NCBI GenBank assembly: GCA_004293485.1 | Contig: RDYW01000045.1 | Location: 1 to 64,000, forward strand | Reading direction: 5' to 3' | Origin: Sphingobacteriales bacterium | GTDB taxonomy: Bacteria; Bacteroidota; Bacteroidia; Sphingobacteriales; Sphingobacteriaceae | Length of the DNA: 64,000 nucleotides | In this document: in pieces, positions 16,831 through 30,579 of the stretch | How the letters are laid out: each line of letters begins with the position of its first letter | Numbering within the stretch: the stretch's first letter is position 1 | Notes under the pieces: generated by a model | Seen by the model: only the letters and a program-made list of their open reading frames with translations | Databases searched by the model: none | Told to the model about the DNA's origin: nothing | Position numbers and translations under genes: made by a program

Positions 16831-17283
16831 TCAATCTATTACTACTGCATTAGCCAATTTAAAAGTTGCAGTATCATTATCCAAGTCATTTATAATTAAG
16901 GTACCTTCTAAATTTATAGGCTTTGTATTAAATTTTATGGGTGTGCTCATATACACTTCTACCATTTCGGGTATATCGCCGGTGCCACAAAACTGGCATT
17001 GCATTACAGGCAGTACCGATAGTAAAAAAACTTTATGTGTAGCCCCTACATTTGTAGGTACCATATAGCCATTTAGCTGTATTTTGGTTTTATTATAGGC
17101 CATTAAACTGGGCGGAAAGTAGGGCATATATTGCCCTTCGGCATTTTTTTTAATGGTGCGTGTGTTTAAAATTTCCCAATATTTATTGGTAATGGTTTTG
17201 TGAGGTGCTTGGGCAAATGTTTTTTGGACATACAAAACACTAAAAACTAATATTAAGGTAGGCCATTTAATTTTGTTTATCAT
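16831..17283 (-). CDS. DUF3299-like secreted protein
   Basis: Signal peptide; LNGYMVPTNV...HKVFLLSVLPVMQCQFCGTGDIPEMVEVYM resembles DUF3299-type proteins. Confidence 0.5.
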   Translation of the reverse strand: MINKIKWPTLILVFSVLYVQKTFAQAPHKTITNKYWEILNTRTIKKNAEGQYMPYFPPSLMAYNKTKIQLNGYMVPTNVGATHKVFLLSVLPVMQCQFCGTGDIPEMVEVYMSTPIKFNTKPINLEGTLIINDLDNDTATFKLANAVVID

Positions 17284-17352
17284 AACGCAAATTTACAAAA
17301 CGCTTATTGTGTACGCAATACTTTGTTAATTGCAAACACAGTTTAATGCTTA

Positions 17353-17814
17353 CTAATCTTCGTAATAATCAACCATTAAACCCTTTTCGTGGTTAAAATT
17401 TATCACTCTTTTTTCGTCGCCAAAATTTAAAAGCAGTGCTTCATTTGCATAAAATTGTTGAAACTGCTGGGCTTCAATACTTTTTAAAGGGTTGTTTTTG
17501 GCAATACACCAAAACTCATTATTAATTTCGCTTTTTTGCGTTATTTTAATTTGTCCATTAAAGGCAGCCTCCACTTCTTTAATTTCAAGTGCAATATCAT
17601 AATTGGTTTTTATGCAAATACCATCATCAGTTTCGTTAATTTCTAACAATACAGGTGGTAAATTATTAAACTCTAATTCAATTTTATCAATAAATACGTA
17701 TGCATTTTTAGAAATAGCTAAGTTATTCCATCTGTAATAATTAACACCAGTAATAAAAGTACCTATTTTTACACTATCAATTATAAATAATTCATCAACG
17801 CTAAAGTATCCCAT
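17353..17814 (-). CDS. Hypothetical protein
   Basis: 153 aa ORF in a same-strand gene run. Confidence 0.6.
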   Translation of the reverse strand: MGYFSVDELFIIDSVKIGTFITGVNYYRWNNLAISKNAYVFIDKIELEFNNLPPVLLEINETDDGICIKTNYDIALEIKEVEAAFNGQIKITQKSEINNEFWCIAKNNPLKSIEAQQFQQFYANEALLLNFGDEKRVINFNHEKGLMVDYYED

Positions 17815-17836
17815 ATTTTATTACAAAAAAAAGAAA

Positions 17837-18103
17837 TTAAATTAATAAATAATATGCCAATAAGGCAATTGATGCTATTGTGCCAATTATTGAAAACACA
17901 TTACGTAAAGCTTGGCACATTTTAGTAAAAGTACTGGAGGTATGGCTGGTTTTATAACCATCCATTACCAAATACATAGAGCCAAAAATTAGCCAGTTAA
18001 AACCACTTGGTACATCGTTTTTAAAAAACATCAATATGCCTACTGTAACCAAAATGCCTCCAGTTATTAAATTTAAAATTTCGTTTCGTTTATTAAATTT
18101 CAT
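17837..18103 (-). CDS. Hypothetical small membrane protein
   Basis: 88 aa with predicted TM segments. Confidence 0.6.
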   Translation of the reverse strand: MKFNKRNEILNLITGGILVTVGILMFFKNDVPSGFNWLIFGSMYLVMDGYKTSHTSSTFTKMCQALRNVFSIIGTIASIALLAYYLLI

Positions 18104-18110
18104 AATATTT

Positions 18111-19244
18111 TTAACATAAACAGTTGTGTTCGCAACAGGTTAAATCATCTAAATACATTACGTTTTTGCGGTATTTGTTTATCATATCTGAATTATCTAA
18201 ACCATAATATTTGCCAATATTGTTTGCAACAATAGCAAAACGCTGCCTAAATTTATAAATAAAACAAAATATAACGTTTTGGTGCTGAACGTGTGGCCCT
18301 ACTAAATACAGGTTTTTTGTTTTCACAGATTCATCAAATTGGTTTAATACAGGTTTACCGTTTTCGTTAAAATCAAACAAATTGGATATTTGATGTTCGC
18401 CACCTAAAAAGCCTGTACACAATATAGGTGGATGGGTGGTTTTAAAAATATCGGTTTTAGAAAAAACACTATACCCATCTGCAGTTTTAACTACTTTGTC
18501 TATTTCTATATCAACGTAAATTACAATTTTATCGAGGTTGAGATTGTTGACATCTAAAATTTTTTGCCTGCTGTAAGGCGATATTGATAGGCTTGGGTCT
18601 TGTTCGTTAATTTTAATGGTATCTGTTTTATCAATTAATAGAATACCCTCTACTTCTTTGTTTTTAGATAAATTATAGGCTACATCAATACCACTTTCGT
18701 AAGCACCTATCACTATATAATTATCGTTTGTGAAATTTTTATAGGTTTTTATTGATGAAAATGTGGTACATAACTCGGCTCCTTTAAATGGTTTTATTTG
18801 CGGAAACTTGTATTCGCCAGTTGCCCATATTAAATATTGACATTGAAAACTACCTTGGTTAGTTTCGATAACAAAAATATGTTTTCGTTTTTCTACAGCC
18901 AGTACTTTGCAGTTTTCATTTACATTCAAATCAAACTCTTGTACCATTTTATTTAAGTAGGCTGCATACTCAATTCCCCTTAAATGTTGTTTCCCACTGG
19001 TTAATGCTGGTGAGGTATTTAAGGCAATTGCATTGTAATCTATCAAGCCAAAAGATGTAGAGGGGAAGGAAGGTGTTATAAATTGAGTTTCGTGTGGCCA
19101 GTTTATAAATGATGAACCTACAACATCGGCCTCTAAAACAGTAAAATGTTTAATGCCAAAATCTTTAAGAGCTATGCCAACACCTACACCAGCCGCACCA
19201 GCACCTACAATTATTACAGGAAATGTTTGTGTTTTTTTAATCAT
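18111..19244 (-). CDS. FAD/NAD(P)-binding oxidoreductase with Cys-rich C-terminus
   Basis: GAGAAGVGVG dinucleotide-binding motif, GAYESGIDVA second Rossmann motif, terminal DDLTCCEHNCLC. Confidence 0.85.
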   Translation of the reverse strand: MIKKTQTFPVIIVGAGAAGVGVGIALKDFGIKHFTVLEADVVGSSFINWPHETQFITPSFPSTSFGLIDYNAIALNTSPALTSGKQHLRGIEYAAYLNKMVQEFDLNVNENCKVLAVEKRKHIFVIETNQGSFQCQYLIWATGEYKFPQIKPFKGAELCTTFSSIKTYKNFTNDNYIVIGAYESGIDVAYNLSKNKEVEGILLIDKTDTIKINEQDPSLSISPYSRQKILDVNNLNLDKIVIYVDIEIDKVVKTADGYSVFSKTDIFKTTHPPILCTGFLGGEHQISNLFDFNENGKPVLNQFDESVKTKNLYLVGPHVQHQNVIFCFIYKFRQRFAIVANNIGKYYGLDNSDMINKYRKNVMYLDDLTCCEHNCLC

Positions 19245-19306
19245 TAAAATATTTTAAATTTTATCAAAGTTTTTATAGAAATAATTGCCTAAAATTTTTA
19301 TTAATT

Positions 19307-19314
19307 CAAATGTA
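19307..19314 (-). promoter_or_regulatory. Predicted -7 element of the minus-strand FAD operon
   Basis: TACATTTG on the minus strand, N21 from a TTG (19336-19338); matches Bacteroidota TTG-N19-21-TAnnTTTG. Confidence 0.55.
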
Positions 19315-19320
19315 ATGTTA

Positions 19321-19339
19321 TTTGCAACATAGTTGCAAA
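19321..19339. promoter_or_regulatory. Zur-like operator, perfect inverted repeat
   Basis: TTTGCAAC-ATA-GTTGCAAA, between divergent genes, overlapping both predicted -33 elements. Confidence 0.7.
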
Positions 19340-19356
19340 ATTAAATGAAATATAAT

Positions 19357-19364
19357 TACCTTTG
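19357..19364 (+). promoter_or_regulatory. Predicted -7 element of the plus-strand metal operon
   Basis: TACCTTTG, N21 from TTG at 19333-19335. Confidence 0.55.
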
Positions 19365-19371
19365 ATAATAT

Positions 19372-20184
19372 ATGAATGAAAGTGAATTATCGGGAATTGT
19401 GCTAATGCTTATATTGGGTTTACGCCACGGGTTAGACCCCGACCATATAGCCGTTATAGATGGTGTGGCAATGCAAGCTCAAAAAAATAATCACAAATAC
19501 GCTGCTTGGGTAGGTACTTTTTTTGCTCTTGGTCACGGGTTAGTGGTAACTAGTATTGCGGTTGCAATGCATTTTGTACATCAATTATTTACAATACCCT
19601 CGGGTTTATTTGCCATTTTAGAGTGGCTACCCGTTTTTTTGTTGCTTTTGGTAGGATTTTTAAACTTACAAAGTTTGTTGAATTATAAAAACGAATTTAA
19701 AACCGTAAGCTGGCGTAGTAAATTTGTACCTAAATCAATTAGAAATAAAGTACACCCATTTTCGATATTACTTACAGGAATTATTTTTGCTTTGGTTTTT
19801 GATACTGCAACACAAGCTGCAGCGTGGGGTTATGCATCATCATCAAAGGGAGGCTGGTTTACTGCATTAATTATGGGTTTAATTTTTACAATAGGTATGG
19901 TTTTTACCGATACTTTAGATGGCTTTTTGCTAAACAAAATTTGGAGTAAAACAGAGAACAAAAATATTTTAATCAAAAGTAGGCGTATATTGGGTTGGGG
20001 TATTGTTAGCGTTTCGTTTTTGGTTGCCTTTTATAAAATAACATTAGCATTTATTCCGGCCATTAGTTTATCAGATATTGTAATGACAGTTATTGGCTTA
20101 GCTTTTTTGCTTACCATTATTTTATTTTATACCTACACTTGGTTTATTAGCTTATCAAATCAACCAAAAACTTATGGCAATTAA
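19372..20184 (+). CDS. NiCoT (HoxN/NixA-type) nickel/cobalt permease family protein
   Basis: LRHGLDPDHIAVID signature, GHGLVV, FDTATQ, multi-TM. Confidence 0.93.
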   Translation: MNESELSGIVLMLILGLRHGLDPDHIAVIDGVAMQAQKNNHKYAAWVGTFFALGHGLVVTSIAVAMHFVHQLFTIPSGLFAILEWLPVFLLLLVGFLNLQSLLNYKNEFKTVSWRSKFVPKSIRNKVHPFSILLTGIIFALVFDTATQAAAWGYASSSKGGWFTALIMGLIFTIGMVFTDTLDGFLLNKIWSKTENKNILIKSRRILGWGIVSVSFLVAFYKITLAFIPAISLSDIVMTVIGLAFLLTIILFYTYTWFISLSNQPKTYGN

Positions 20185-20539
20185 AAACCTTACCGATATA
20201 AAATTGCACCTATTTATGTGTAATGGAGGGGCGTGTTGTAATTTAGGAGCGCAAGAGGCAACAGATATAATACGTAACACTATAAAAAAATTGGGCTTTT
20301 TTGATGCGGTGCATACAACCAAAACTTTTTGCAACGGCAGATGTAACCAAGCACCAATTGTTATTGAAATACCAAAGGGCAACTGGTACAAAAACATTTC
20401 GCCACAATATGCCGAAGAGTTTGCTACCCGTTTGGTAAACAACAAACCCATACCTAACAAACACAAATTATATACTTATGGTAACGCAAGTATAAATTAT
20501 GAAACTTTGGAATCAAATACTAACCAAAAAACCTCTTAA
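20174..20539 (+). CDS. (2Fe-2S) ferredoxin / thioredoxin-fold protein
   Basis: MCNGGACCNLGA...TTKTFCNGRCNQAPIVIEIP cysteine pattern. Confidence 0.8.
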   Translation: MAIKNLTDIKLHLFMCNGGACCNLGAQEATDIIRNTIKKLGFFDAVHTTKTFCNGRCNQAPIVIEIPKGNWYKNISPQYAEEFATRLVNNKPIPNKHKLYTYGNASINYETLESNTNQKTS

Positions 20540-20549
20540 CAATAATTTT

Positions 20550-21908
20550 ATGAACAATCAAAAAATACCAGTAACCGTATTAACTGGCTTTTTAGGCTCG
20601 GGTAAAACCACCCTATTAAACCGCATATTATCCGAAAACCACGGCAAAAAAATTGCTGTAATAGAAAACGAATTTGGCGAAATTGGTGTAGATAACGAAT
20701 TAGTTATTGGTGCCGATGAAGAGATTTTTGAAATGAACAATGGCTGCATTTGCTGTACCGTAAGAGGCGATTTAATTAGGATTTTAACCCAACTTACTCG
20801 CCGTAAAGATAGGTTAGACCATATCATTATCGAAACAACAGGTATGGCTAACCCATCGCCTGTGGCACAAACTTTTTGGGTTGATGAAGAAATGCAAGAA
20901 CAGTTTAAGCTAGATGCCATTGTAACTATTGTTGATGCTAAACACGTTTGGCTACATATTGATGACAGCGAAGAATGTAAAGAACAAATAGCCTTTGCCG
21001 ATGTAATTTTACTCAACAAAACCGATTTAGTTTCTACCGAAGAGTTAGGATTGCTTAAAACACGCACAAAGCGGATGAACAGTCAAGCAAAAATACATAC
21101 TACGGTAAATGCCGAAATTAACCTTAACCATATTTTAAATATAAACGCTTTTGATTTAGAGGCTAAAGTTGAAATAACCCCCAGTTTTTTAGAAGAAGAG
21201 TATCCTTACGAATGGAGCGGTTTTTACGCATTAGAAAAAGCAAATTATACCTTAACATTTGATGAAGGCCCAGATTTAGCAATGGATTTGTTGGTGCTGC
21301 CTATGCCCGATATTTCGAATGAAAGCCAGTTAAAAGCTTCTAAAAAAGCAATATTTATGTTTTCGGAACGCGATGATGTGCATATTGCAAACGTCAAAAA
21401 TAGTAGTATTAGCCTATTACAAAAAAATCAAATTGATTTGGTTAACCCACAACAAAGCTATCAACTTAATATAGAAAAAACGGGTTTTTACGGTTTATTT
21501 ACCCAACACGGACCCGATGAGTTTAATATGAAATTTGCGTTAAATAACTCGCAAATTAACCCAATAGCGCAACAGGAACATAACCACAGCCACCAACACG
21601 ATAATACAGTAGTATCGGTAGGTATTGAGGAGGAAAGAATGCTGGATATTAATAAAGTAGATACGTGGATTTCGATGTTGCTACAATACAAAGGCGTAGA
21701 TATTTACAGAATGAAGGGTATTTTAAATATCAAAAACAACCCAAACCGTTTTGTTTTTCAAGGGGTACATATGCTGTTTGATGCCATTGAAGATAGGCCT
21801 TGGCGAGCAGATGAAATTCGTAGAAACCAAATGATTTTTATAGGTAAAAACTTAGATAGAAACGAAATTGTTACAGGTTTTGAACTTTGCATAGCTAAAA
21901 ATCAATAA
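20550..21908 (+). CDS. COG0523 (CobW/ZigA-type) GTPase, His-rich loop
   Basis: GFLGSGKTTLLNRIL, NNGCICCTVRGDL (CxCC), NKTD, QQEHNHSHQHDN. Confidence 0.95.
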   Translation: MNNQKIPVTVLTGFLGSGKTTLLNRILSENHGKKIAVIENEFGEIGVDNELVIGADEEIFEMNNGCICCTVRGDLIRILTQLTRRKDRLDHIIIETTGMANPSPVAQTFWVDEEMQEQFKLDAIVTIVDAKHVWLHIDDSEECKEQIAFADVILLNKTDLVSTEELGLLKTRTKRMNSQAKIHTTVNAEINLNHILNINAFDLEAKVEITPSFLEEEYPYEWSGFYALEKANYTLTFDEGPDLAMDLLVLPMPDISNESQLKASKKAIFMFSERDDVHIANVKNSSISLLQKNQIDLVNPQQSYQLNIEKTGFYGLFTQHGPDEFNMKFALNNSQINPIAQQEHNHSHQHDNTVVSVGIEEERMLDINKVDTWISMLLQYKGVDIYRMKGILNIKNNPNRFVFQGVHMLFDAIEDRPWRADEIRRNQMIFIGKNLDRNEIVTGFELCIAKNQ

Positions 21909-21912
21909 AATT

Positions 21913-22961
21913 ATGAAGCAGCAAGAACCCTATTTTATTCCGTTGCCATCTAACACCGAGTTAATTAGCCTACAAATTGAATTAGATGAATATATTACTG
22001 CAATAGCTTGGTTAAATAATAAAAACTTAGCCGTGGGTACGGCAGCAGGTACTTTATATTTTTTAGATATTGAAACCGTAAAAGTTTTACATAAAATAAA
22101 AGCACATAATGGTTCTGTACAATCTATAAGTACCAATAATCAAAACTTAATTGTAACTGGGGGCAAGATGGGTTAGCAAAAATATTTGAATGGGGCATCA
22201 CAAACCCAATTGCTCAATTAAAAATGAACGCCGATTGGATAGAAAAAGTACTTTACAGCCCTAATGGTTTATGGCTTTTGGTAGTTGCGGGCAATCAATT
22301 TAGCCTATTTAAAGCTGATGGAAGCTTAGTTTATAATTCAATAACTCACGAAAGTACCATTTCTGATATTTGCTGGCGAGCCGATAGCCAACAATTTAGC
22401 TCGGCTTGTTATAGTGCCGTTAGGTTTTTTAATGTATATAGTGCCATTGAAATTGATACACTTTTGTGGAAAAACTCTATGCTATCAATTTCTTGGAGTC
22501 CAAATTTTAAGTTTTTATGTTCGGGTACGCAAGATTCGAGAATACACTTTTGGCAATTGCCTTACAAAAAGGGTAACGATTTTGAGATGAGCGGCTACCG
22601 TGGCAAAGTGCGTAATTTAAGTTGGGATAGCGAATCTAATTTTATGGCCAGTAATTGCTGGAACGAAGTTATAGTTTGGCCCTTTCATAAAGGGAAAGCC
22701 CCAAAAGGCAAAAAACCAATTATTCTGTCACACTCAACAGAAAGGGTAACCACTTTAAATTTTCAAAACTTTAGTACTGTTTTAGCCGTGGGTAATAAAG
22801 CTGGGATGGTTTGTTTTTACGACCCAACCACAGGCGATGATTATTTAGCCGCTGTACAACTTAATGGCGAAATTACCAGTTTATATTGGGCACCTAACGA
22901 TACTTATTTATCCGTAGGTACAGCAAATGGTTTTTTGTATATTGTTAAGGATTTAAGCTAG
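21913..22961 (+). pseudogene. WD40 repeat protein interrupted by a -1 frameshift in a G tract
   Basis: ORFs 21913-22176 and 22224-22961 join as ...IVTGGQDGLAKIFEWG... if one G is added to GGGGG at 22159-22163. Confidence 0.85.
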
Positions 22962-23023
22962 TTGTACTTTAAATCAATAGCTTGTTAATCAAACTACAGG
23001 GCAATAAAAAAAAATACGCCGAT

Positions 23024-23431
23024 ATGAACAATTTTGAAACCATACACCTCGAAGAATCAACTGAGTTATTACTTCAATTTAATAAACCTAATGGCCTTTT
23101 ACCTGTAATAGTTCAAGAATATAGTACAAATGAAATTCTAATGCAAGGTTATGTAAATCAACAAGCACTAACAAAAACTATCCAAATTGGTAAAGCTGTT
23201 TTTTACAGTACATCTCGCAAAAAATTATGGTTTAAAGGCGAAACATCGGGCAACACCTTAACCATAAACGAGATATTGATAGACTGCGACCAAGATGCAC
23301 TAATTTATAAAGTAACCTTAGATAATGGCGGCAGTTGCCACACTTTTTTAAGCAATGGCCAAAACAGAAAAGGGTGTTTTTACCGCAGGTTAGATACTAA
23401 GTTTATGCAATTAACAATGATTGCCGAATAA
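23024..23431 (+). CDS. hisI: Phosphoribosyl-AMP cyclohydrolase (HisI) domain protein, stand-alone
   Basis: GLLPVIVQEYSTNEILMQGYVN, FYSTSRKKLWFKGETSGN, IDCDQDALIYKV, CHT...GCFYR. Confidence 0.92.
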   Translation: MNNFETIHLEESTELLLQFNKPNGLLPVIVQEYSTNEILMQGYVNQQALTKTIQIGKAVFYSTSRKKLWFKGETSGNTLTINEILIDCDQDALIYKVTLDNGGSCHTFLSNGQNRKGCFYRRLDTKFMQLTMIAE

Positions 23432-23473
23432 ATTTTTATTTGCAAAGGCAAAAAATTAAAAATCAACTACTAA

Positions 23474-24490
23474 ATGAGTACAAAAAATATAACCTTAATA
23501 ACTGGTTTTTTGGGTGCTGGTAAAACTACTCTACTAAATAGCATTATAGCACAAAAAAAACAAACCCGTTTTGCCATTATAGAAAACGAAATTGGCGAAC
23601 AAAGTATTGATGCAGAATTAATTATAAAAGGCAATGATGATATTGTTGAATTAAATAACGGTTGCTTATGCTGCACCCTAAATGATAATTTGTACGATAT
23701 TATTAACAATTTATGGAAACGCAATAACGAGTGGGACGAAGTAATTATTGAAGCTACTGGCATTGCCAACCCAGCTAATATTGCACATCCTTTTTTAGTT
23801 AACCCTCTTATAAAAAAAACTTTTACATTAAGCCGTGTAATATGCGTGGTTGATGCCGAACTTATTGAAAACCAATTAAAAAACACCGAGGAAGCCATAT
23901 TACAAATAGCTTTTAGCGATATTATTTTGTTAAACAAAACCCAAAATGTAACACCACATTATGCAAAAACTTTACAAAATATTTTAACTCAAATTAACCC
24001 TTTTACAACAGTTGTAATTGCTGATAACCAAAACTTTAAAATTGATGAATTGTACCAGCATCAGCGTTCGTCTGATTTTAAAACTAACCCAAAAACTTTT
24101 ACTACCCATACAAGTATGCTATCTTTATCGAGCCTTAGCCCACAAAAAAATAATATAGTAGCACCACAAAACTCACACGTAAAACACCAACATAGTAATA
24201 TTGAAACTATTTTAATTACTTTCCCTGACGAGATAGATGTTGAAAGCTTACAACACCGCCTTTTTGTTTTTTTAATGATACAAGCCAAAGATGTTTACCG
24301 TATAAAAGCTGTTATAAACAGTTGCGCCGATAACCACAAGGTAATTTTACAAAGCGTAGGTAAAAGTGTAGCCTTAACCAATGGGCAACTTTGGGGCGTT
24401 GAAAAAAGAATGAATAAAATTGTAATTATTGGTAAAAATATAAAAATGTTAAGCCTCGAAAAACTTTTTAAAGAACATATTGCTGCCTAA
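23474..24490 (+). CDS. COG0523 GTPase (second copy)
   Basis: GFLGAGKTTLLNSI, NNGCLCCTLNDNL, NKT, HVKHQHSN. Confidence 0.94.
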   Translation: MSTKNITLITGFLGAGKTTLLNSIIAQKKQTRFAIIENEIGEQSIDAELIIKGNDDIVELNNGCLCCTLNDNLYDIINNLWKRNNEWDEVIIEATGIANPANIAHPFLVNPLIKKTFTLSRVICVVDAELIENQLKNTEEAILQIAFSDIILLNKTQNVTPHYAKTLQNILTQINPFTTVVIADNQNFKIDELYQHQRSSDFKTNPKTFTTHTSMLSLSSLSPQKNNIVAPQNSHVKHQHSNIETILITFPDEIDVESLQHRLFVFLMIQAKDVYRIKAVINSCADNHKVILQSVGKSVALTNGQLWGVEKRMNKIVIIGKNIKMLSLEKLFKEHIAA

Positions 24491-24500
24491 ATACCCCCCA

Positions 24501-25340
24501 ATGAACTTTTTACAAATTACTTGGAACCCAAATCCCAATTTAATTGATTTTGGGTTTATAGTCATAAAATACTATTCGGTGTGTTTTATGTTGGCTTTTG
24601 CGGCAAGCTATGTAGTTGTAAAACAAAATACCGAATATAAAACAAACCCATTATTATTAGATAGTTTAACCATTTATGTTTTTTTAGGCACATTGTTAGG
24701 GGCTAGGTTAGGGCATTGTTTATTTTACGATTTCGATTATTTTAGCCAACACCCACTAGAAATTTTATTGCCTGTAACTTTCGAACCCGAATTTAAATTT
24801 ACAGGCTTTAGTGGTTTGGCCAGCCACGGTGGCGGTACAGGCATATTAATTAGCCTTTTATTGTTTAGCAAAAAACACAAAATTAAACCTTGGGTATTAA
24901 TAGATCAGATTGCATTAGTAGTGCCTTTGGCTGGTTTTTTTATCAGAATGGGTAACCTAATGAATTCCGAAATTATAGGTAAACCAACCAATGTAAGTTG
25001 GGCTTTTGTATTTGTAAATGAAGATTATTTACCCCGCCACCCAGCACAGTTGTACGAAGCCATCGCTTATTTATTAATTTTTGTTTTGCTTTACTATGCC
25101 ATAAAAAAATGGCCTAAACCAGCTGGTTTTTATTTTGGTTTGTGCATTACGCTTATTTTTATAGTTCGTTTTTTTGTGGAATTTATAAAAGAAAACCAAG
25201 CTGATTTTGAAAGTACAATGCCCATAAATATGGGTCAAATTTTAAGCTTCCCTTTTATTGTTGTAGGTGTGGTAATTATGTGCCTTAAATTTTATCCCAA
25301 AAATAATTCTCAAAATGAATATGAAAATCCAAAAAATTAA
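24501..25340 (+). CDS. lgt: Prolipoprotein diacylglyceryl transferase
   Basis: ASHGGGTGI, FIRMGNLMNSEIIGKPT, PRHPAQLYEA. Confidence 0.93.
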   Translation: MNFLQITWNPNPNLIDFGFIVIKYYSVCFMLAFAASYVVVKQNTEYKTNPLLLDSLTIYVFLGTLLGARLGHCLFYDFDYFSQHPLEILLPVTFEPEFKFTGFSGLASHGGGTGILISLLLFSKKHKIKPWVLIDQIALVVPLAGFFIRMGNLMNSEIIGKPTNVSWAFVFVNEDYLPRHPAQLYEAIAYLLIFVLLYYAIKKWPKPAGFYFGLCITLIFIVRFFVEFIKENQADFESTMPINMGQILSFPFIVVGVVIMCLKFYPKNNSQNEYENPKN

Positions 25341-25722
25341 TTTGCAGCTAGATGGTATAGGTATGCTTGCATCAACGCTTTGTGCCATACACTGCGTTTT
25401 TGTACCTTTGCTTTTAAGCACATTACCGCTTTGGGGAATTGGTTTTTTGGCCAACCAATGGGTAGAGGTTGTAATGATAATAGTTTCTTTGTTTTTAGGC
25501 TCGGTATCGTTAGGTGCAAATTTTTTTAACCATCGTAAAATACTGCCTTTACTAATTTTGTTGATTGGATTTGGATTAATTGCCCTAGGTGATTTTTGCG
25601 GTAACGATAATTTAGAACCTATATTTGTACCTTTAGGCGGTTTTACAATTTCTATTTCACATCTAATAAACTGGCGTTATGTGCGTTTATTAAACCAAAA
25701 ACATTTACATAAAACACTATAA
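25315..25722 (+). CDS. MerC-domain membrane protein
   Basis: LDGIGMLASTLCAIHCVFVPLLLSTLP and a four-TM layout typical of MerC-like proteins. Confidence 0.8.
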   Translation: MNMKIQKINLQLDGIGMLASTLCAIHCVFVPLLLSTLPLWGIGFLANQWVEVVMIIVSLFLGSVSLGANFFNHRKILPLLILLIGFGLIALGDFCGNDNLEPIFVPLGGFTISISHLINWRYVRLLNQKHLHKTL

Positions 25723-25741
25723 AACCAATATATTTACGGCT

Positions 25742-26368
25742 ATGGTAAAAGTTAATTCTCTTTCGCATAGTTTTGGCAACAATACCCATTTATCTTTCCC
25801 CGATTGGGAGATTAAATCTGGAGAGCAATATTTGTTTTTAGGCAATTCGGGCAGTGGTAAAACTACTTTAATTCATATTTTAACAGGCTTGTTAAATCCC
25901 CAAAAGGGGAAAATATGGATAAACAATACTGATATTTACGCCTTAACCCCATCAAAATTAGATAGTTTTAGAGGCAAAAACATTGGATTAATATTTCAGC
26001 AAGCACACCTTATAAAAAGTTTAAACGTTTTTCAAAATTTAAGCATAGCCCAAAGTTTTGCTGGCTTAAAGCCCGATAAACAGCGTATTAACCAAGTATT
26101 AGATGTGTTACAAATACTATCTAAAGCCAACAATTACCCGCACCAGCTTAGCCAAGGGCAAGCACAAAGGGTGGCCATTGCAAGGGCGGTAATAAATAAA
26201 CCTGCATTGTTAGTTGCGGATGAGCCTACATCCAGCCTCGATGATGAAAATGCGGAAATTGTGCTGCAACTATTAAAAAATTTATCACAAGCCAATGGTT
26301 CCACTTTAATTATTGCCACCCACGATGCTAGGTTAAAACCATCTTTTACTAACCAATACGTACTATAA
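25742..26368 (+). CDS. ABC transporter ATP-binding protein (LolD/MacB type)
   Basis: Walker A GNSGSGKTT, LSQGQAQRVAIARA, LVADEPTSSLD. Confidence 0.95.
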   Translation: MVKVNSLSHSFGNNTHLSFPDWEIKSGEQYLFLGNSGSGKTTLIHILTGLLNPQKGKIWINNTDIYALTPSKLDSFRGKNIGLIFQQAHLIKSLNVFQNLSIAQSFAGLKPDKQRINQVLDVLQILSKANNYPHQLSQGQAQRVAIARAVINKPALLVADEPTSSLDDENAEIVLQLLKNLSQANGSTLIIATHDARLKPSFTNQYVL

Positions 26369-27574
26369 ATGAATGTTATAAGTATAAGTTTTAAAAGTTT
26401 AATGGCCAATAAGTTATCGGCTTTTTTAAATATCTTGTTAATAGCATTTGGGGTAAGTATATTAACCATTTTGCTGTTGGTAAGCAACCAAATACAAAAT
26501 AAGTTAGAAAACAACGCCCGTGGAATTGATGCCGTGGTAGGTGCAAAAGGCAGTCCGTTACAATTAATTTTAAGCAGCATTTATTATATTGATTTCCCCA
26601 CGGGCAATATACCCTTAAAAGCTGCCAACGAATTGGCCAAAAACCGAATGGTAAAACTTGCAGTGCCACTTGCCTTGGGCGATAATTTTAACGGTTACCG
26701 CATTGCTGGTACCAATAGCAGTTTTATAAAATTATACAATTTAAAACTGGCCGATGGTAAATTTTGGGATAAAGATTTTGAGGTTACGCTTGGCGCAGAT
26801 GTTGCCAAAACACAAAAACTAAAAATTGGAGATATATTTTTTGGCGCACACGGCCTAGCCGATAATAGCGATATGCACAAAAGCCACGCCTACAAAGTGG
26901 CAGGTATTTTAACCCCTAATGCCAATGTAACCGACCAATTGGTAATTACAAATATAGCCAGCGTATGGAAAATGCATCAACACGAAGACGAACACGAAGC
27001 CGAAAACCCGCTGCCCCAAAGCCCGCAGCCCGAGGCAGAAATAACCTCCTTACTTATCAAATACAAATCGCCCATATCGGTTATACTATTTCCTAAATTG
27101 GTAAACGAAACTACAAACCTACAGGCCGCATCGCCAGCCATAGAAAGTACCCGTTTGTTTTCTTTAATAGGCGTGGGAGTAGATACACTGCAATATTTTG
27201 CGATTTTGATTATGGTAATTTCGGTGGTAAGTGTTTTTATAAGTTTGTTTAACTCGCTAAAACAGCGCAAATACGATTTAGCCATTATGCGTACAATGGG
27301 TGCATCAAAAACTAAAATTTTTTTAATAGTAATTTTAGAAGGCTTTTTTTTATCGCTTTTAGGTACGTTATTAGGTTGGTTTTTGGGGCATTTGGTTTTG
27401 CAGTATTTGGGCAGTTTGCAAGATGCTGGGCAATCAAAACTAACAGGTTTTATATTTTTAACACAAGAGTTTTATTTGATTTTGGTGGGATTGTGTACTG
27501 GAATTTTTGCCGCCACACTACCAGCTATCGCAGCGTATAGGGTTAATATCTCTAAAATATTGAGTACCAACTAA
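26369..27574 (+). CDS. FtsX-type ABC permease with acidic/His-rich loop
   Basis: N-terminal TM, large extracytoplasmic domain, three C-terminal TMs; MHQHEDEHEAENP loop; starts one base after the ATPase stop. Confidence 0.92.
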   Translation: MNVISISFKSLMANKLSAFLNILLIAFGVSILTILLLVSNQIQNKLENNARGIDAVVGAKGSPLQLILSSIYYIDFPTGNIPLKAANELAKNRMVKLAVPLALGDNFNGYRIAGTNSSFIKLYNLKLADGKFWDKDFEVTLGADVAKTQKLKIGDIFFGAHGLADNSDMHKSHAYKVAGILTPNANVTDQLVITNIASVWKMHQHEDEHEAENPLPQSPQPEAEITSLLIKYKSPISVILFPKLVNETTNLQAASPAIESTRLFSLIGVGVDTLQYFAILIMVISVVSVFISLFNSLKQRKYDLAIMRTMGASKTKIFLIVILEGFFLSLLGTLLGWFLGHLVLQYLGSLQDAGQSKLTGFIFLTQEFYLILVGLCTGIFAATLPAIAAYRVNISKILSTN

Positions 27575-27606
27575 ATTTTAGCTGCTACATTTTACGATAA
27601 TAGTTT

Positions 27607-27638
27607 AAAAAAAAACTGCTTTTAAAGCGGTTTTTTTT
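27607..27638. terminator. Bidirectional terminator
   Basis: AAAAAAAAACTGCTtttaaAGCGGTTTTTTTT. Confidence 0.8.
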
Positions 27639-28125
27639 ATTTCAACTTATCTTCTACTTTAATTTTATTGTCTTGCTGCAGTATTATTTTATGGTCGGTT
27701 TCTATTTTTTTATGGTCGGCCATAAGCATTTCATCATCTTCAAGCATTTTTTTATGTTCGGCGATAATTTCTTCATCGGGTGTGTTACCGTCGGCGTGTT
27801 TTTTCTCTAGCAATTCGTGTGCTGCTATTAAAGCCGAATGTTTTTCGATTAACAAAGTATGTGATTGCAATATTTTTTCGTGTACCGCTTCTATTTTATT
27901 ATGCGCACTCGTATCGGCCTCTTCTAAAGCATTGTGTTTTGTAATAAAAGCTGCGTGTTCAGCTTCCATTGCTGTATGTGCATCTTCCAATATTTTATGG
28001 TCGGTTTCAATTTTTGCATGCTCGGCATTCAATTCTTTTTCTAGTGCTGCATTTTTTTGGTTGCAAGCTGCAAAAAATAATGAGGTTGTTAACCCAAGTG
28101 CTATAATTAGTGTTTTAGTTTTCAT
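27637..28125 (-). CDS. Lipoprotein with heptad-phased histidines
   Basis: Lipobox LFFAAC; 14 His with spacings 7,7,7,7,11,7,7,7,7,7,14,14,7. Confidence 0.85.
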   Translation of the reverse strand: MKTKTLIIALGLTTSLFFAACNQKNAALEKELNAEHAKIETDHKILEDAHTAMEAEHAAFITKHNALEEADTSAHNKIEAVHEKILQSHTLLIEKHSALIAAHELLEKKHADGNTPDEEIIAEHKKMLEDDEMLMADHKKIETDHKIILQQDNKIKVEDKLK

Positions 28126-28137
28126 AATTTTTTTTAA

Positions 28138-28145
28138 CAAATTTA
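28138..28145 (-). promoter_or_regulatory. Predicted -7 element of the His-rich lipoprotein gene
   Basis: TAAATTTG on the minus strand, 18-21 nt from TTG triplets in CAACATTGTTG. Confidence 0.5.
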
Positions 28146-28163
28146 GGTAAAAAAACTTAAACG

Positions 28164-28174
28164 CAACAATGTTG
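28164..28174. promoter_or_regulatory. Zur-like half-size palindrome
   Basis: CAACAATGTTG between divergent genes. Confidence 0.5.
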
Positions 28175-28194
28175 AATTATATTTTACAAAATGT

Positions 28195-28202
28195 TATGTT
28201 TG
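28195..28202 (+). promoter_or_regulatory. Predicted -7 element of the 28236 gene
   Basis: TATGTTTG, N20 from TTG at 28172-28174. Confidence 0.5.
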
Positions 28203-28217
28203 CAACATTGTAGCATT
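28199..28217. promoter_or_regulatory. Zur-like operator, imperfect
   Basis: TTTGCAACATTGTAGCATT aligns with TTTGCAACATAGTTGCAAA. Confidence 0.6.
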
Positions 28218-28235
28218 AACTTAAATATATTAAAA

Positions 28236-28442
28236 ATGATACCACAAACATTTGAACAATGGGCAAATTGCATCGCTAACGATTGTAAAATAAAACTTAC
28301 ACAAGAATTTGCCCAACAACGTTTAGCTGTATATGAAAACAAACAATCCAAAGAAACTCAAAACTTTATTACACTATACGGCTCGCAACATTTAGTAAAT
28401 GTTGTTTTATGGTTAAACCAAATTAACAATAGTTTTAATTAA
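28236..28442 (+). CDS. Small hypothetical protein
   Basis: ATG at 28236; MIPQTFEQWANCIANDCKIKLTQEFAQQRLAVYENK; downstream of Zur-like boxes. Confidence 0.65.
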   Translation: MIPQTFEQWANCIANDCKIKLTQEFAQQRLAVYENKQSKETQNFITLYGSQHLVNVVLWLNQINNSFN

Positions 28443-28512
28443 TTAATAACCTGAATTCGATTTTATATTTTTTTTCAAAATACATTAAATCAAGAGTTTA
28501 TCACGATTTTAG

Positions 28513-28653
28513 AGCGTTAACGATTGAGGCGGCTCGCCTGCTGGCCGGCAGGCATCCTTTTTATCAATTGCCCCCGACTTTAGTCGGGGATGCAATTGAT
28601 AAAAGATACTTGCCTGCTTGGCAAGTAGGCAGCCGAAAGCGTGTTAAAACGCC
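28513..28653. repeat. Nested imperfect palindromic element (MITE/REPIN-like)
   Basis: Core CCCCGACTTTAGTCGGGG inside TTTTATCAATTGC...GCAATTGATAAAA inside GGCTCGCCTGCTGGCCGGCAGGC...GCCTGCTTGGCAAGTAGGCAGCC. Confidence 0.7.
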
Positions 28654-28723
28654 CAAATTATTGCTAAACTGTAACTCCGAGTTTTTATTAATCGAACTCA
28701 GGTTAATAAGTAATTCAAACAAT

Positions 28724-28742
28724 AATGCAATATAGTTGCATT
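28724..28742. promoter_or_regulatory. Zur-like operator, perfect inverted repeat
   Basis: AATGCAA-TATAG-TTGCATT, overlapping TTG-N19-TATCTTTA upstream of the third COG0523 gene. Confidence 0.7.
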
Positions 28743-28781
28743 TAAAAATCATTAAGTTATCTTTACCACAAAAATTAAACT

Positions 28782-29969
28782 ATGCAATTAAAAAAACTTC
28801 CAGTAACCGTATTGAGCGGGTTTTTAGGAACAGGTAAAACCACACTTTTAAATCATATACTACATAATAAGCAAAACCTACGTGTTGCGGTAATTGTAAA
28901 CGATATGAGCGAGGTAAATATTGATGCTCAATTAATTAAAAACGAGGGGACACTATCGCGTACCGAAGAAAAATTAGTGGAAATGAGCAATGGTTGTATT
29001 TGTTGCACCTTGCGTGAAGATTTAATGATTGAGGTAGAAAAATTGGCCAAAGAAAACCGATTTGATTATTTGTTGATAGAAAGTACGGGCATATCGGAAC
29101 CTATACCCGTAGCGCAAACTTTCACTTTCGTGGATGATGAAAAAAGCATCGACCTATCGAGGTTTAGCTATGTAGATACGATGGTTACTGTAGTAGATTG
29201 CTTTAATTTTTTTAAAGATTTTGGTACAGATGAACGCCTGCAAGACCGTAACCTAACCGAAACAATGGAGGATACCCGCACCATTGTAAACCTACTTACG
29301 GACCAAATAGAGTTTGCCAACGTGATAGTTTTAAACAAAACCGATTTGGTGCAACGTGGCGATGTAAAACTTTTAAAAGCATTAATTAATAAACTAAACC
29401 CCGATGCAAAAATTATAGAAAGTGAGTTTTCTAAAATAGATTGCAAGCAGATATTAAACACAGGCTTGTTCGATTTTGAAACGGCATCAAACTCGGCAGG
29501 GTGGATAAAAGAATTAAACGAAGAGCATACACCCGAAACTGAGGAATACGGCATAGGTTCGATGGTGTTTAGAAACAATCGCCCTTTTCATCCCGCTAGG
29601 TTTACCAAGTTTTTAAACGATGATTTTCCTAACAATATTATTCGTAGCAAAGGCTTGTTTTGGATGGCCAATGCGCCCGATAATGCCGTAAATTTTTCGC
29701 AGGCTGGTGGCTCATCTCGTATGGAAAGTGCAGGTGTGTGGTGGGCAAGTATGCCTTTTGAAGAACGCATTACTTACCAAGATTTTGTAGAAAATAAAGA
29801 TTATATTGAAAAAAAATGGACAAAAGATTTTGGCGACCGTGTAAACGAATTGGTTTTTATTGCCCAAGATTTAGATAAAGATGATTTGCAAAAACAATTA
29901 GAAACTTGTTTAATAACCGATGATGAAGTGTTGCTTTACCGTAGCGGGCATAGGTTTGATGAAGTGTAA
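28782..29969 (+). CDS. COG0523 GTPase (third copy)
   Basis: GFLGTGKTTLLNHIL, SNGCICCTLREDL, NKTD, conserved C-terminal domain. Confidence 0.95.
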   Translation: MQLKKLPVTVLSGFLGTGKTTLLNHILHNKQNLRVAVIVNDMSEVNIDAQLIKNEGTLSRTEEKLVEMSNGCICCTLREDLMIEVEKLAKENRFDYLLIESTGISEPIPVAQTFTFVDDEKSIDLSRFSYVDTMVTVVDCFNFFKDFGTDERLQDRNLTETMEDTRTIVNLLTDQIEFANVIVLNKTDLVQRGDVKLLKALINKLNPDAKIIESEFSKIDCKQILNTGLFDFETASNSAGWIKELNEEHTPETEEYGIGSMVFRNNRPFHPARFTKFLNDDFPNNIIRSKGLFWMANAPDNAVNFSQAGGSSRMESAGVWWASMPFEERITYQDFVENKDYIEKKWTKDFGDRVNELVFIAQDLDKDDLQKQLETCLITDDEVLLYRSGHRFDEV

Positions 29970-30052
29970 AACATTTACTTATTTTTTAAAATTTTACAGT
30001 TTTAAATAAAAAGTTAAACGTTTATATTTTTGGGTTTATGTGTTAATTTGTG

Positions 30053-30091
30053 AAGCTTGCTACCTTAATTTAGCGAGCTTTTGCTTTTTAA
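30053..30091 (+). terminator. Terminator-like hairpin
   Basis: AAGCTTGCTA...TAGCGAGCTT followed by T-rich sequence. Confidence 0.55.
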
Positions 30092-30141
30092 AATCAATAT
30101 CTTTTTTAAAATTAATTAATCATTATTTGTAGTTTTACCCT

Positions 30142-30579
30142 ATGCAAGCCAACCCGCAACACAACCAACTATTAGTTAAACATAACCTTAAAATAACCAC
30201 ACCACGGTTAAGTGTATTAGCGGTTTTAACCACTAGAGAAATGGCAACATCGCAGCCCGATTTAGAACAATTACTGGGTAGCAAAATAGATAGGGTTACG
30301 CTGTACCGCACCCTTAGTACATTTGAAAAAAAAGGGATTTTACATAAAGTTATGGGGGCTAATGGCACATTAAATTATGCCCTATGTTCCGGTGCTTGTA
30401 CCCAACATAACCACCACGACAAGCATGTACATTTTAATTGCACCTTATGTTTAAATGTTTACTGTTTAGATAAACTTCAAATTCCGCAGCTACAAATTCC
30501 AGATGGTTTTACAACAAAAAAAATAGATTTAATGGTAAGTGGCGTTTGCCATAAATGTAATAACGCTGATAGTAAATAA
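30142..30579 (+). CDS. Fur-family transcriptional regulator, probably Zur
   Basis: ITTPRLSVLAVL...KIDRVTLYRTLSTFEKKGILHKV; HNHHDKHVHFNCTLCLNVYC; C-terminal CHKC. Confidence 0.88.
   Translation: MQANPQHNQLLVKHNLKITTPRLSVLAVLTTREMATSQPDLEQLLGSKIDRVTLYRTLSTFEKKGILHKVMGANGTLNYALCSGACTQHNHHDKHVHFNCTLCLNVYCLDKLQIPQLQIPDGFTTKKIDLMVSGVCHKCNNADSK

Follow-up and report, generated by a model that had tools for sequence, protein, structure and literature searches.

A predicted zinc-scarcity regulon with Zrg-like transport genes gathered in one locus of a Sphingobacteriaceae genome

Background

The zrg operon of Vibrio, in which zrgA encodes a DUF2796 protein and zrgE a DUF3299 protein, is induced 75- to 200-fold without zinc (PMC9817125); import depends on ZrgA, and ZrgB is a predicted MacB-like protein (PMC9820375). 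The clustering of COG0523 and WD40 genes with Zur sites, as well as Zur-controlled HisI paralogues with intact zinc ligands, have already been reported in other bacteria (PMC2770081). A 2018 review of Zur regulons holds no Bacteroidota entry (PMC6103462), and in the literature that we searched, RegPrecise lying outside that search, we found no description of a Bacteroidota Zur regulon. Here we present a 14-kb locus (positions 16831 to 30579) within a stretch of 64,000 nucleotides, called the window below, from a Sphingobacteriaceae bacterium (GenBank assembly GCA_004293485.1, contig RDYW01000045.1). Judged from gene order, operators and regulator ligands, this locus is very probably a zinc-scarcity (Zur) regulon gathered in one place.

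The source genome (G000) is a metagenome-assembled genome of 2.2 Mb in 89 contigs, 95.5% complete, in which the window is contig C30. Labels of the form L### and G### denote the comparison loci and comparison genomes of this analysis. Operator statistics cover 127 related loci totaling 2.48 Mb, gene presence was counted in 80 named loci, and gene families were assigned with Pfam and NCBIfam profiles on the locus proteins. A sequence-only reading had named the genes of the locus; an open reading frame (ORF) was found at every coordinate it gave, and most families were matched in Pfam or NCBIfam.

Results

A conserved palindrome at the leading promoters

In this locus the palindrome TGCAAY-N3-RTTGCA is present at the leading promoters. 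One predicted Zur box, TGCAACATAGTTGCA (19323-19337), lies between the divergent predicted operons of a flavin adenine dinucleotide (FAD) oxidoreductase and a NicO permease, and an identical box precedes NicO in L151. Another, TGCAATATAGTTGCA (28726-28740), lies 42 bp upstream of a ZigA-like GTPase gene. Between a His-comb lipoprotein gene and ORF 28236 we find the predicted box TGCAACATTGTAGCA (28201-28215), accompanied at 39 bp by a predicted weaker one, CGCAACAATGTTGAA (28162-28176); across loci, paired boxes are mostly 38-39 bp apart. Genome-wide in G000, TGCAACATAGTTGCA and TGCAATATAGTTGCA are the only zero-mismatch sites, and 11 of 12 further sites inspected fall inside ORFs, the exception being C60:25229.

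We demonstrate the conservation of this operator by comparison across loci. The perfect palindrome TGCAAYNNNRTTGCA occurs 78 times in the 127 loci, against a mean of 0.83 and a maximum of 4 for 59 controls in which the palindrome was permuted at constant composition, and a single one of the 76 distinct sites lies inside an ORF. The gene next to a perfect box is MerC-like in 40 cases, ZigA in 28, LolD in 15 and a member of the 28236 family in 6, with HisI (5), the ferredoxin-like gene (5) and NicO (2) following.

A Fur-family regulator with conserved Zur ligands

The regulator gene at 30142-30579 (forward strand) encodes a Fur-family protein that we predict to be Zur from its FUR profile match, its ligand alignment and its linkage to the boxes. 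H68, C82 and the four cysteines of the CxxC motifs correspond in the alignment to H77, C88, C103, C106, C143 and C146 of E. coli Zur. H68 is conserved among 39 relatives. The cysteines of site A (C100/C103/C136/C139, two CxxC) are invariant in these relatives, and C82 of site B, equivalent to E. coli Zur C88, is conserved in 97% of them. Among the B-site residues of Zur proteins, C88 of E. coli Zur is described as the most conserved, and the substitutions C88S and C103S abolish function (PMC4219657). Riboswitch control was considered and rejected, as an Rfam scan of the region matched no known riboswitch.

Transport genes homologous to Zrg systems

Three genes make up the transport core: a LolD/ZrgC-type ATP-binding cassette (ABC) ATPase (25742-26368, forward strand; ABC ATPase profile match), a ZrgB-type permease of MacB fold (26369-27574, forward strand; FtsX/MacB-PCD match) and a DUF3299-like, ZrgE-like periplasmic protein with a signal peptide and a conserved C-x-F-C-G motif (16831-17283, reverse strand). 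By sequence comparison these are homologous to zinc-importing Zrg systems and would, on that ground, import zinc as well. A tblastn search of plasmids with the permease led to a Phaeobacter operon of the order Fur-DUF2796-ATPase-FtsX-DUF3299, and a P. aeruginosa plasmid carries the operon DUF2796-ATPase-permease-DUF3299. Compared with the window permease, Phaeobacter ZrgB gives 179 bits and the P. aeruginosa ZrgB-type protein 142, versus 42, 38 and 29 bits for LolE, MacB and LolC of E. coli. A maximum-likelihood tree groups it with the ZrgB type, its forks being open and its LolC/LolE/MacB branches too long, so that the homology rests on bit scores and gene order. A long His-rich loop is found in the periplasmic domain of the permease in many relatives.

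The DUF3299 gene sits apart from the permease here, its usual place being after the permease, and its product is 57-61% identical to that of the gene following the FtsX permease in same-genus genomes. The 16831 protein alone matches Pfam DUF3299 at E=0.041, and as a genome-wide probe the Pfam profile gave matches in only 2 of 101 genomes; because this probe was too weak we used a profile derived from neighboring genes. A profile built from 32 Bacteroidota DUF3299-like proteins matches among 305 ORFs, besides 16831 itself, only the ZrgE proteins of two proteobacterial zrg operons (3e-5 and 9e-5); its match to PDB entry 4hsp has an E of 0.024. No DUF2796 (ZrgA) was found among the Pfam matches of the locus proteins, the set searched in place of the whole genome, and we thus describe the system as a Zrg-like, ZrgA-less variant.

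In Pedobacter and relatives a divergent ZigA gene and two boxes are followed by MerC, LolD, FtsX, between one and four DUF3299 genes, and Fur. Counted without correction for ancestry, the 80 loci hold FtsX in 80, LolD in 78, DUF3299 in 76, Fur in 36, MerC in 30 and ZigA in 22. A lack of co-conservation in related genomes had been set beforehand as a refuting outcome, and it was not seen: the gene set and shared operator recur in related loci; because they recur in tens of genomes, the locus is not a chance assembly. The likeness to Zrg-type uptake that the sequence-only reading had offered as an analogy proves to be homology. Its grouping of the ABC pair, the DUF3299-like protein and a His-rich lipoprotein as one system holds for the ABC and DUF3299 genes; the lipoprotein, seen in three zinc loci only, falls outside this core.

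DUF3299-like genes stand in tandem, as two to four copies that have diverged, in L033, L037, L039, L043, L058, L066 and L092, which suggests different partners or metals for the copies.

A MerC-like protein and a ZigA-like GTPase

Upstream of the ABC pair, a small membrane protein (25315-25722, forward strand; match 2e-24) belongs to the MerC family, with Pfam PF03203 covering its full length at 86.4 bits (cut-off 27.6). Boxes stand directly upstream of many of its relatives, which share an invariant C-A-x-H-C motif and a C-terminal His (H116). From this gene context we predict that it acts in zinc rather than Hg(II) transport. The GTPase behind the last box (28782-29969, forward strand), the third of the locus with a CobW/COG0523 match, also matches the NCBIfam model of the zinc metallochaperone ZigA (NF038288) with 557 bits over residues 6-385, the cut-off being 600.

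A second conserved module

Recurring gene order points to a second conserved module, composed of ferredoxin-like, COG0523 and WD40 genes on one side and HisI, a flavoprotein whose tail is CCxxxCxC and a small membrane protein on the other. In the window it is preceded by the NicO-family permease (19372-20184, forward strand; Pfam NicO 3e-16), putatively for nickel or cobalt and perhaps zinc. A thioredoxin-like [2Fe-2S] ferredoxin-like protein follows (20174-20539, forward strand; weak Pfam match of 0.0023, below cut-off), then COG0523 GTPase A of the WD40-associated type (20499-21908, forward strand; CobW match; true start nearer 20550) and the WD40 beta-propeller protein (21913-22961, forward strand; WD40 match). 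L149, L151, L153 and L154 likewise have the ferredoxin-like gene before this COG0523 gene, together with boxes. In genomes of family f12, ferredoxin-like-COG0523-WD40 and HisI-flavoprotein-88-amino-acid protein are divergent units with perfect boxes, and in G232 the order is 28236 family, Fur, box, NicO, ferredoxin-like, COG0523, WD40. COG0523 GTPase B lies further on (23474-24490, forward strand; CobW/COG0523 match); a PDB search for relatives of the COG0523 GTPases found only YjiA.

All the genes listed in the sequence-only reading are present, except that WD40 is not one intact gene: near 22160, a run of G carries a frameshift of one base that splits it into 21913-22176 and 22224-22961. Its relatives (in L151 and others) are intact at about 350 amino acids, and the frameshift could be an assembly error or a recent inactivation.

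On the reverse strand the putative FAD/NAD(P) flavoprotein (18111-19244; Pfam Pyr_redox_3) ends in a Cys tail, CCxxxCxC, kept in all complete relatives. Identification of this protein as YpdA or ArsO was rejected on scores far below the cut-offs.

HisI, Lgt and the small proteins

The stand-alone HisI (putative phosphoribosyl-AMP cyclohydrolase) paralogue at 22982-23431 (forward strand; PRA-CH match; start nearer 23024) keeps its Cys ligands and is the only HisI found in G000. The his operon of this genome, with hisG, D, C, B, H, A and F, runs unbroken on C9:48337-58312 (L177) and ends without hisIE, and the search for HisE in G000 gave no good match, only a MazG-like one at C68. Relatives have HisIE, and both HisIE and HisI are present in four of the genomes examined (G087, G354, G328 and G175). 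A loss of histidine biosynthesis as the cause of the lone HisI was rejected, the seven genes of that operon being present. A second Lgt (putative prolipoprotein diacylglyceryl transferase; 24480-25340, forward strand; LGT match) adjoins GTPase B here and in L069, and G000 carries another Lgt gene at C79:7786-8859. Lgt and HisI are passengers in the locus, and any role of theirs is putative.

The His-comb lipoprotein (27637-28140, reverse strand) bears His residues along a heptad stripe in what is predicted to be a coiled coil. Its two relatives are placed behind a perfect box beside Zur/ZigA (L033) and between NicO and ZigA (L159), so that by gene context it is linked to zinc loci and lies outside the conserved ABC core.

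Three small ORFs had been listed as having no recognizable family; of these, only 17353 lacks any relative found here. The 68-amino-acid protein of 28236 (28236-28442, forward strand) represents a real conserved family, hitherto undescribed, with invariant Cys12 and Cys17 and a four-helix model (pLDDT, predicted local distance difference test, 87.8). Five relatives in the alignment sit beside a ZigA, Zur or COG0523 gene; we found no Pfam or PDB relative, and Foldseek of the model found nothing. The 88-amino-acid small membrane protein of 17837 (17837-18103, reverse strand), with two hydrophobic stretches, is likewise conserved; in L149, L150 and L154 its relatives (30-31% identity) come immediately behind the FAD oxidoreductase. 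The 153-amino-acid ORF 17353 (17353-17814, reverse strand), inside the predicted FAD-oxidoreductase operon, is an orphan with no Pfam or NCBIfam match and no relative in the comparison loci.

Further genes behind the palindrome in relatives

TonB-dependent-receptor-like genes stand directly behind the same palindrome in several relatives (L042:1-2210, L086:6133-8646, L101:6101-8557, L112:6123-8582, L138:4873-7110 and L146:14432-16690); two of them were checked with Pfam, and the window locus has none. They are candidate outer-membrane receptors for zinc. At L151:610-4973 a box lies between a NicO/DsbD-like membrane protein gene and an ABC-2 (DUF3526) transporter gene, upstream of a 28236-family gene and Fur, an arrangement that is possibly another zinc-scarcity transporter. 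Directly behind perfect boxes at L132:673-1077 and L078:7973-8608 are genes for lipoproteins containing His, unrelated to the His-comb protein.

Discussion

Co-conservation, shared operators and conserved Zur ligands support the proposal of the sequence-only reading that this is a Zur-controlled metal-scarcity locus. In the mechanism that we envisage, the 30142 protein would, when zinc is sufficient, occupy the palindromes at 19323, 28162/28201 and 28726 and keep four transcription units off. These would be FAD oxidoreductase-17837-17353-DUF3299; NicO-ferredoxin-COG0523-WD40-HisI-COG0523-Lgt-MerC-LolD-FtsX; the His-comb lipoprotein plus the divergent 28236 gene; and ZigA alone. Exhaustion of zinc would derepress all four. 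LolD/FtsX and DUF3299 would then acquire zinc as a Zrg-type machine that lacks ZrgA, in which periplasmic His-rich parts (the permease loop in relatives, the His-comb lipoprotein) may gather zinc and the MacB-type ABC pair may hand it on mechanically, driven by ATP. Passage through the inner membrane would likely be by the MerC-like protein, perhaps also by NicO. COG0523 GTPases would then supply priority clients with zinc, and the HisI paralogue would keep its putative enzyme step running during scarcity.

Several observations weigh against this interpretation. Within the window alone the operator is not significantly enriched (3 sites with at most one mismatch versus 1.06 expected, a number reached by 9 of 100 shuffles), and its significance comes from the cross-locus comparison. 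The two-by-two counts that speak for a link of the perfect box to the Fur-family gene (27/31 versus 4/38), and to ZigA and MerC too, ignore shared ancestry. The best score against the NCBIfam Zur equivalog, 34.5 bits, does not reach the cut-off of 167, so that the regulator is predicted to be Zur by function and not as a member of that equivalog. Foldseek with the AlphaFold model of the DUF3299 protein returned weak OB-fold-like matches only, and 4hsp is not among the 50 matches listed. Finally, LolD-FtsX-DUF3299 occurs with no boxes, MerC, ZigA or Fur nearby in the same-genus loci L046-L048, and likewise in Parapedobacter and many Cytophagales. Since loci lacking the partner genes mostly lack boxes, the ABC set appears to predate or extend beyond the Zur control predicted for it, and it may serve a wider function or be regulated otherwise.

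The regulator might instead sense nickel, cobalt or iron, with the locus handling that metal and its COG0523 and MerC-like proteins serving cobalt or nickel. NicO is a nickel/cobalt family and leads the longest predicted operon, COG0523 proteins include cobalt and nickel chaperones, and Fur chains rank above Zur in the PDB search; these points also count against zinc as the metal. We nevertheless regard this alternative as unlikely, for the operator is common to the ZigA-like GTPase and the HisI paralogue, the site-B Cys corresponds to that of E. coli Zur, and the ABC permease is homologous to Zrg. Moreover, a NicO relative is not seen in most loci carrying the operator, and the region holds no known riboswitch.

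It is also quite improbable that LolD/FtsX is not Zrg at all but releases metal-binding lipoproteins as a Lol-type machine, with Lgt as an extra and the His-comb protein as client. An FtsX-type permease, Lgt and a lipoprotein do share the locus, but over its full length the permease scores about four times as many bits with ZrgB as with LolE, and DUF3299 is the recurrent partner whereas the His-comb protein is not. That MerC, ABC export and a Fur-like sensor make up a mercury or toxic-metal resistance island is hardly credible: beyond membership in the MerC family, the locus has none of MerA, MerR or MerP, the MerC-like proteins with C-A-x-H-C sit behind operators common to ZigA, and a search of plasmids with the MerC-like protein gave one weak match only.

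MacB-type ABC proteins are mechanical devices of the periplasm; they do not themselves move substrates through the inner membrane. Within the Zur-controlled, Zrg-like interpretation that we prefer, a two-part importer is conceivable, though we put it forward tentatively and as somewhat doubtful: the ABC pair would strip or deliver zinc, and the MerC-family protein would be the inner-membrane channel. If true, this would explain zinc import by Zrg-type systems, His-rich loops and lipoproteins replacing ZrgA. Apart from this importer, the locus extends the poorly understood Zrg system to a further phylum, in a form that lacks ZrgA and is linked to MerC, and it offers a testable operator and predicted regulon for Bacteroidota zinc starvation. 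For several protein families in the locus we found no description; tying the small nameless proteins (28236 family, 17837 family, CCxxxCxC flavoprotein, His-comb lipoprotein) to zinc scarcity would provide a condition in which to test them.

Comparison with known systems

The locus resembles ZrgABCDE of Vibrio (and the PA4063-4066 type in Pseudomonas) in its MacB-like permease, LolD-like ATPase and DUF3299 protein, and the Phaeobacter system in the Fur-family regulator adjoining the operon. It differs in that no ZrgA (DUF2796) is seen in the window and a MerC-like protein and ZigA are linked instead; DUF3299 often comes in 2-4 tandem copies, with CxFCG replacing the C-I-H-x-P-P-P motif, and many relatives have a His-rich loop inside the permease. 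The MerC mercury transporter shares PF03203 along the whole protein, whereas here there is a zinc-locus context, the C-A-x-H-C motif and no mer operon. As a likeness to the ZigA metallochaperone, 28782 reaches 557 bits with the NCBIfam model, but it falls just below the equivalog cut-off and is coupled to MerC and Zrg-like genes. Judged by gene order, the arrangement of COG0523 followed by WD40 behind a predicted Zur box resembles that of the WD40-linked COG0523 subfamily 5, except that a ferredoxin-like protein and NicO come first. With the Zur regulons of Proteobacteria, Firmicutes, Actinobacteria and cyanobacteria the locus shares a Fur-family repressor, COG0523 GTPases, a HisI paralogue and, in relatives, TonB receptors; what sets it apart from them is the operator TGCAAY-N3-RTTGCA.

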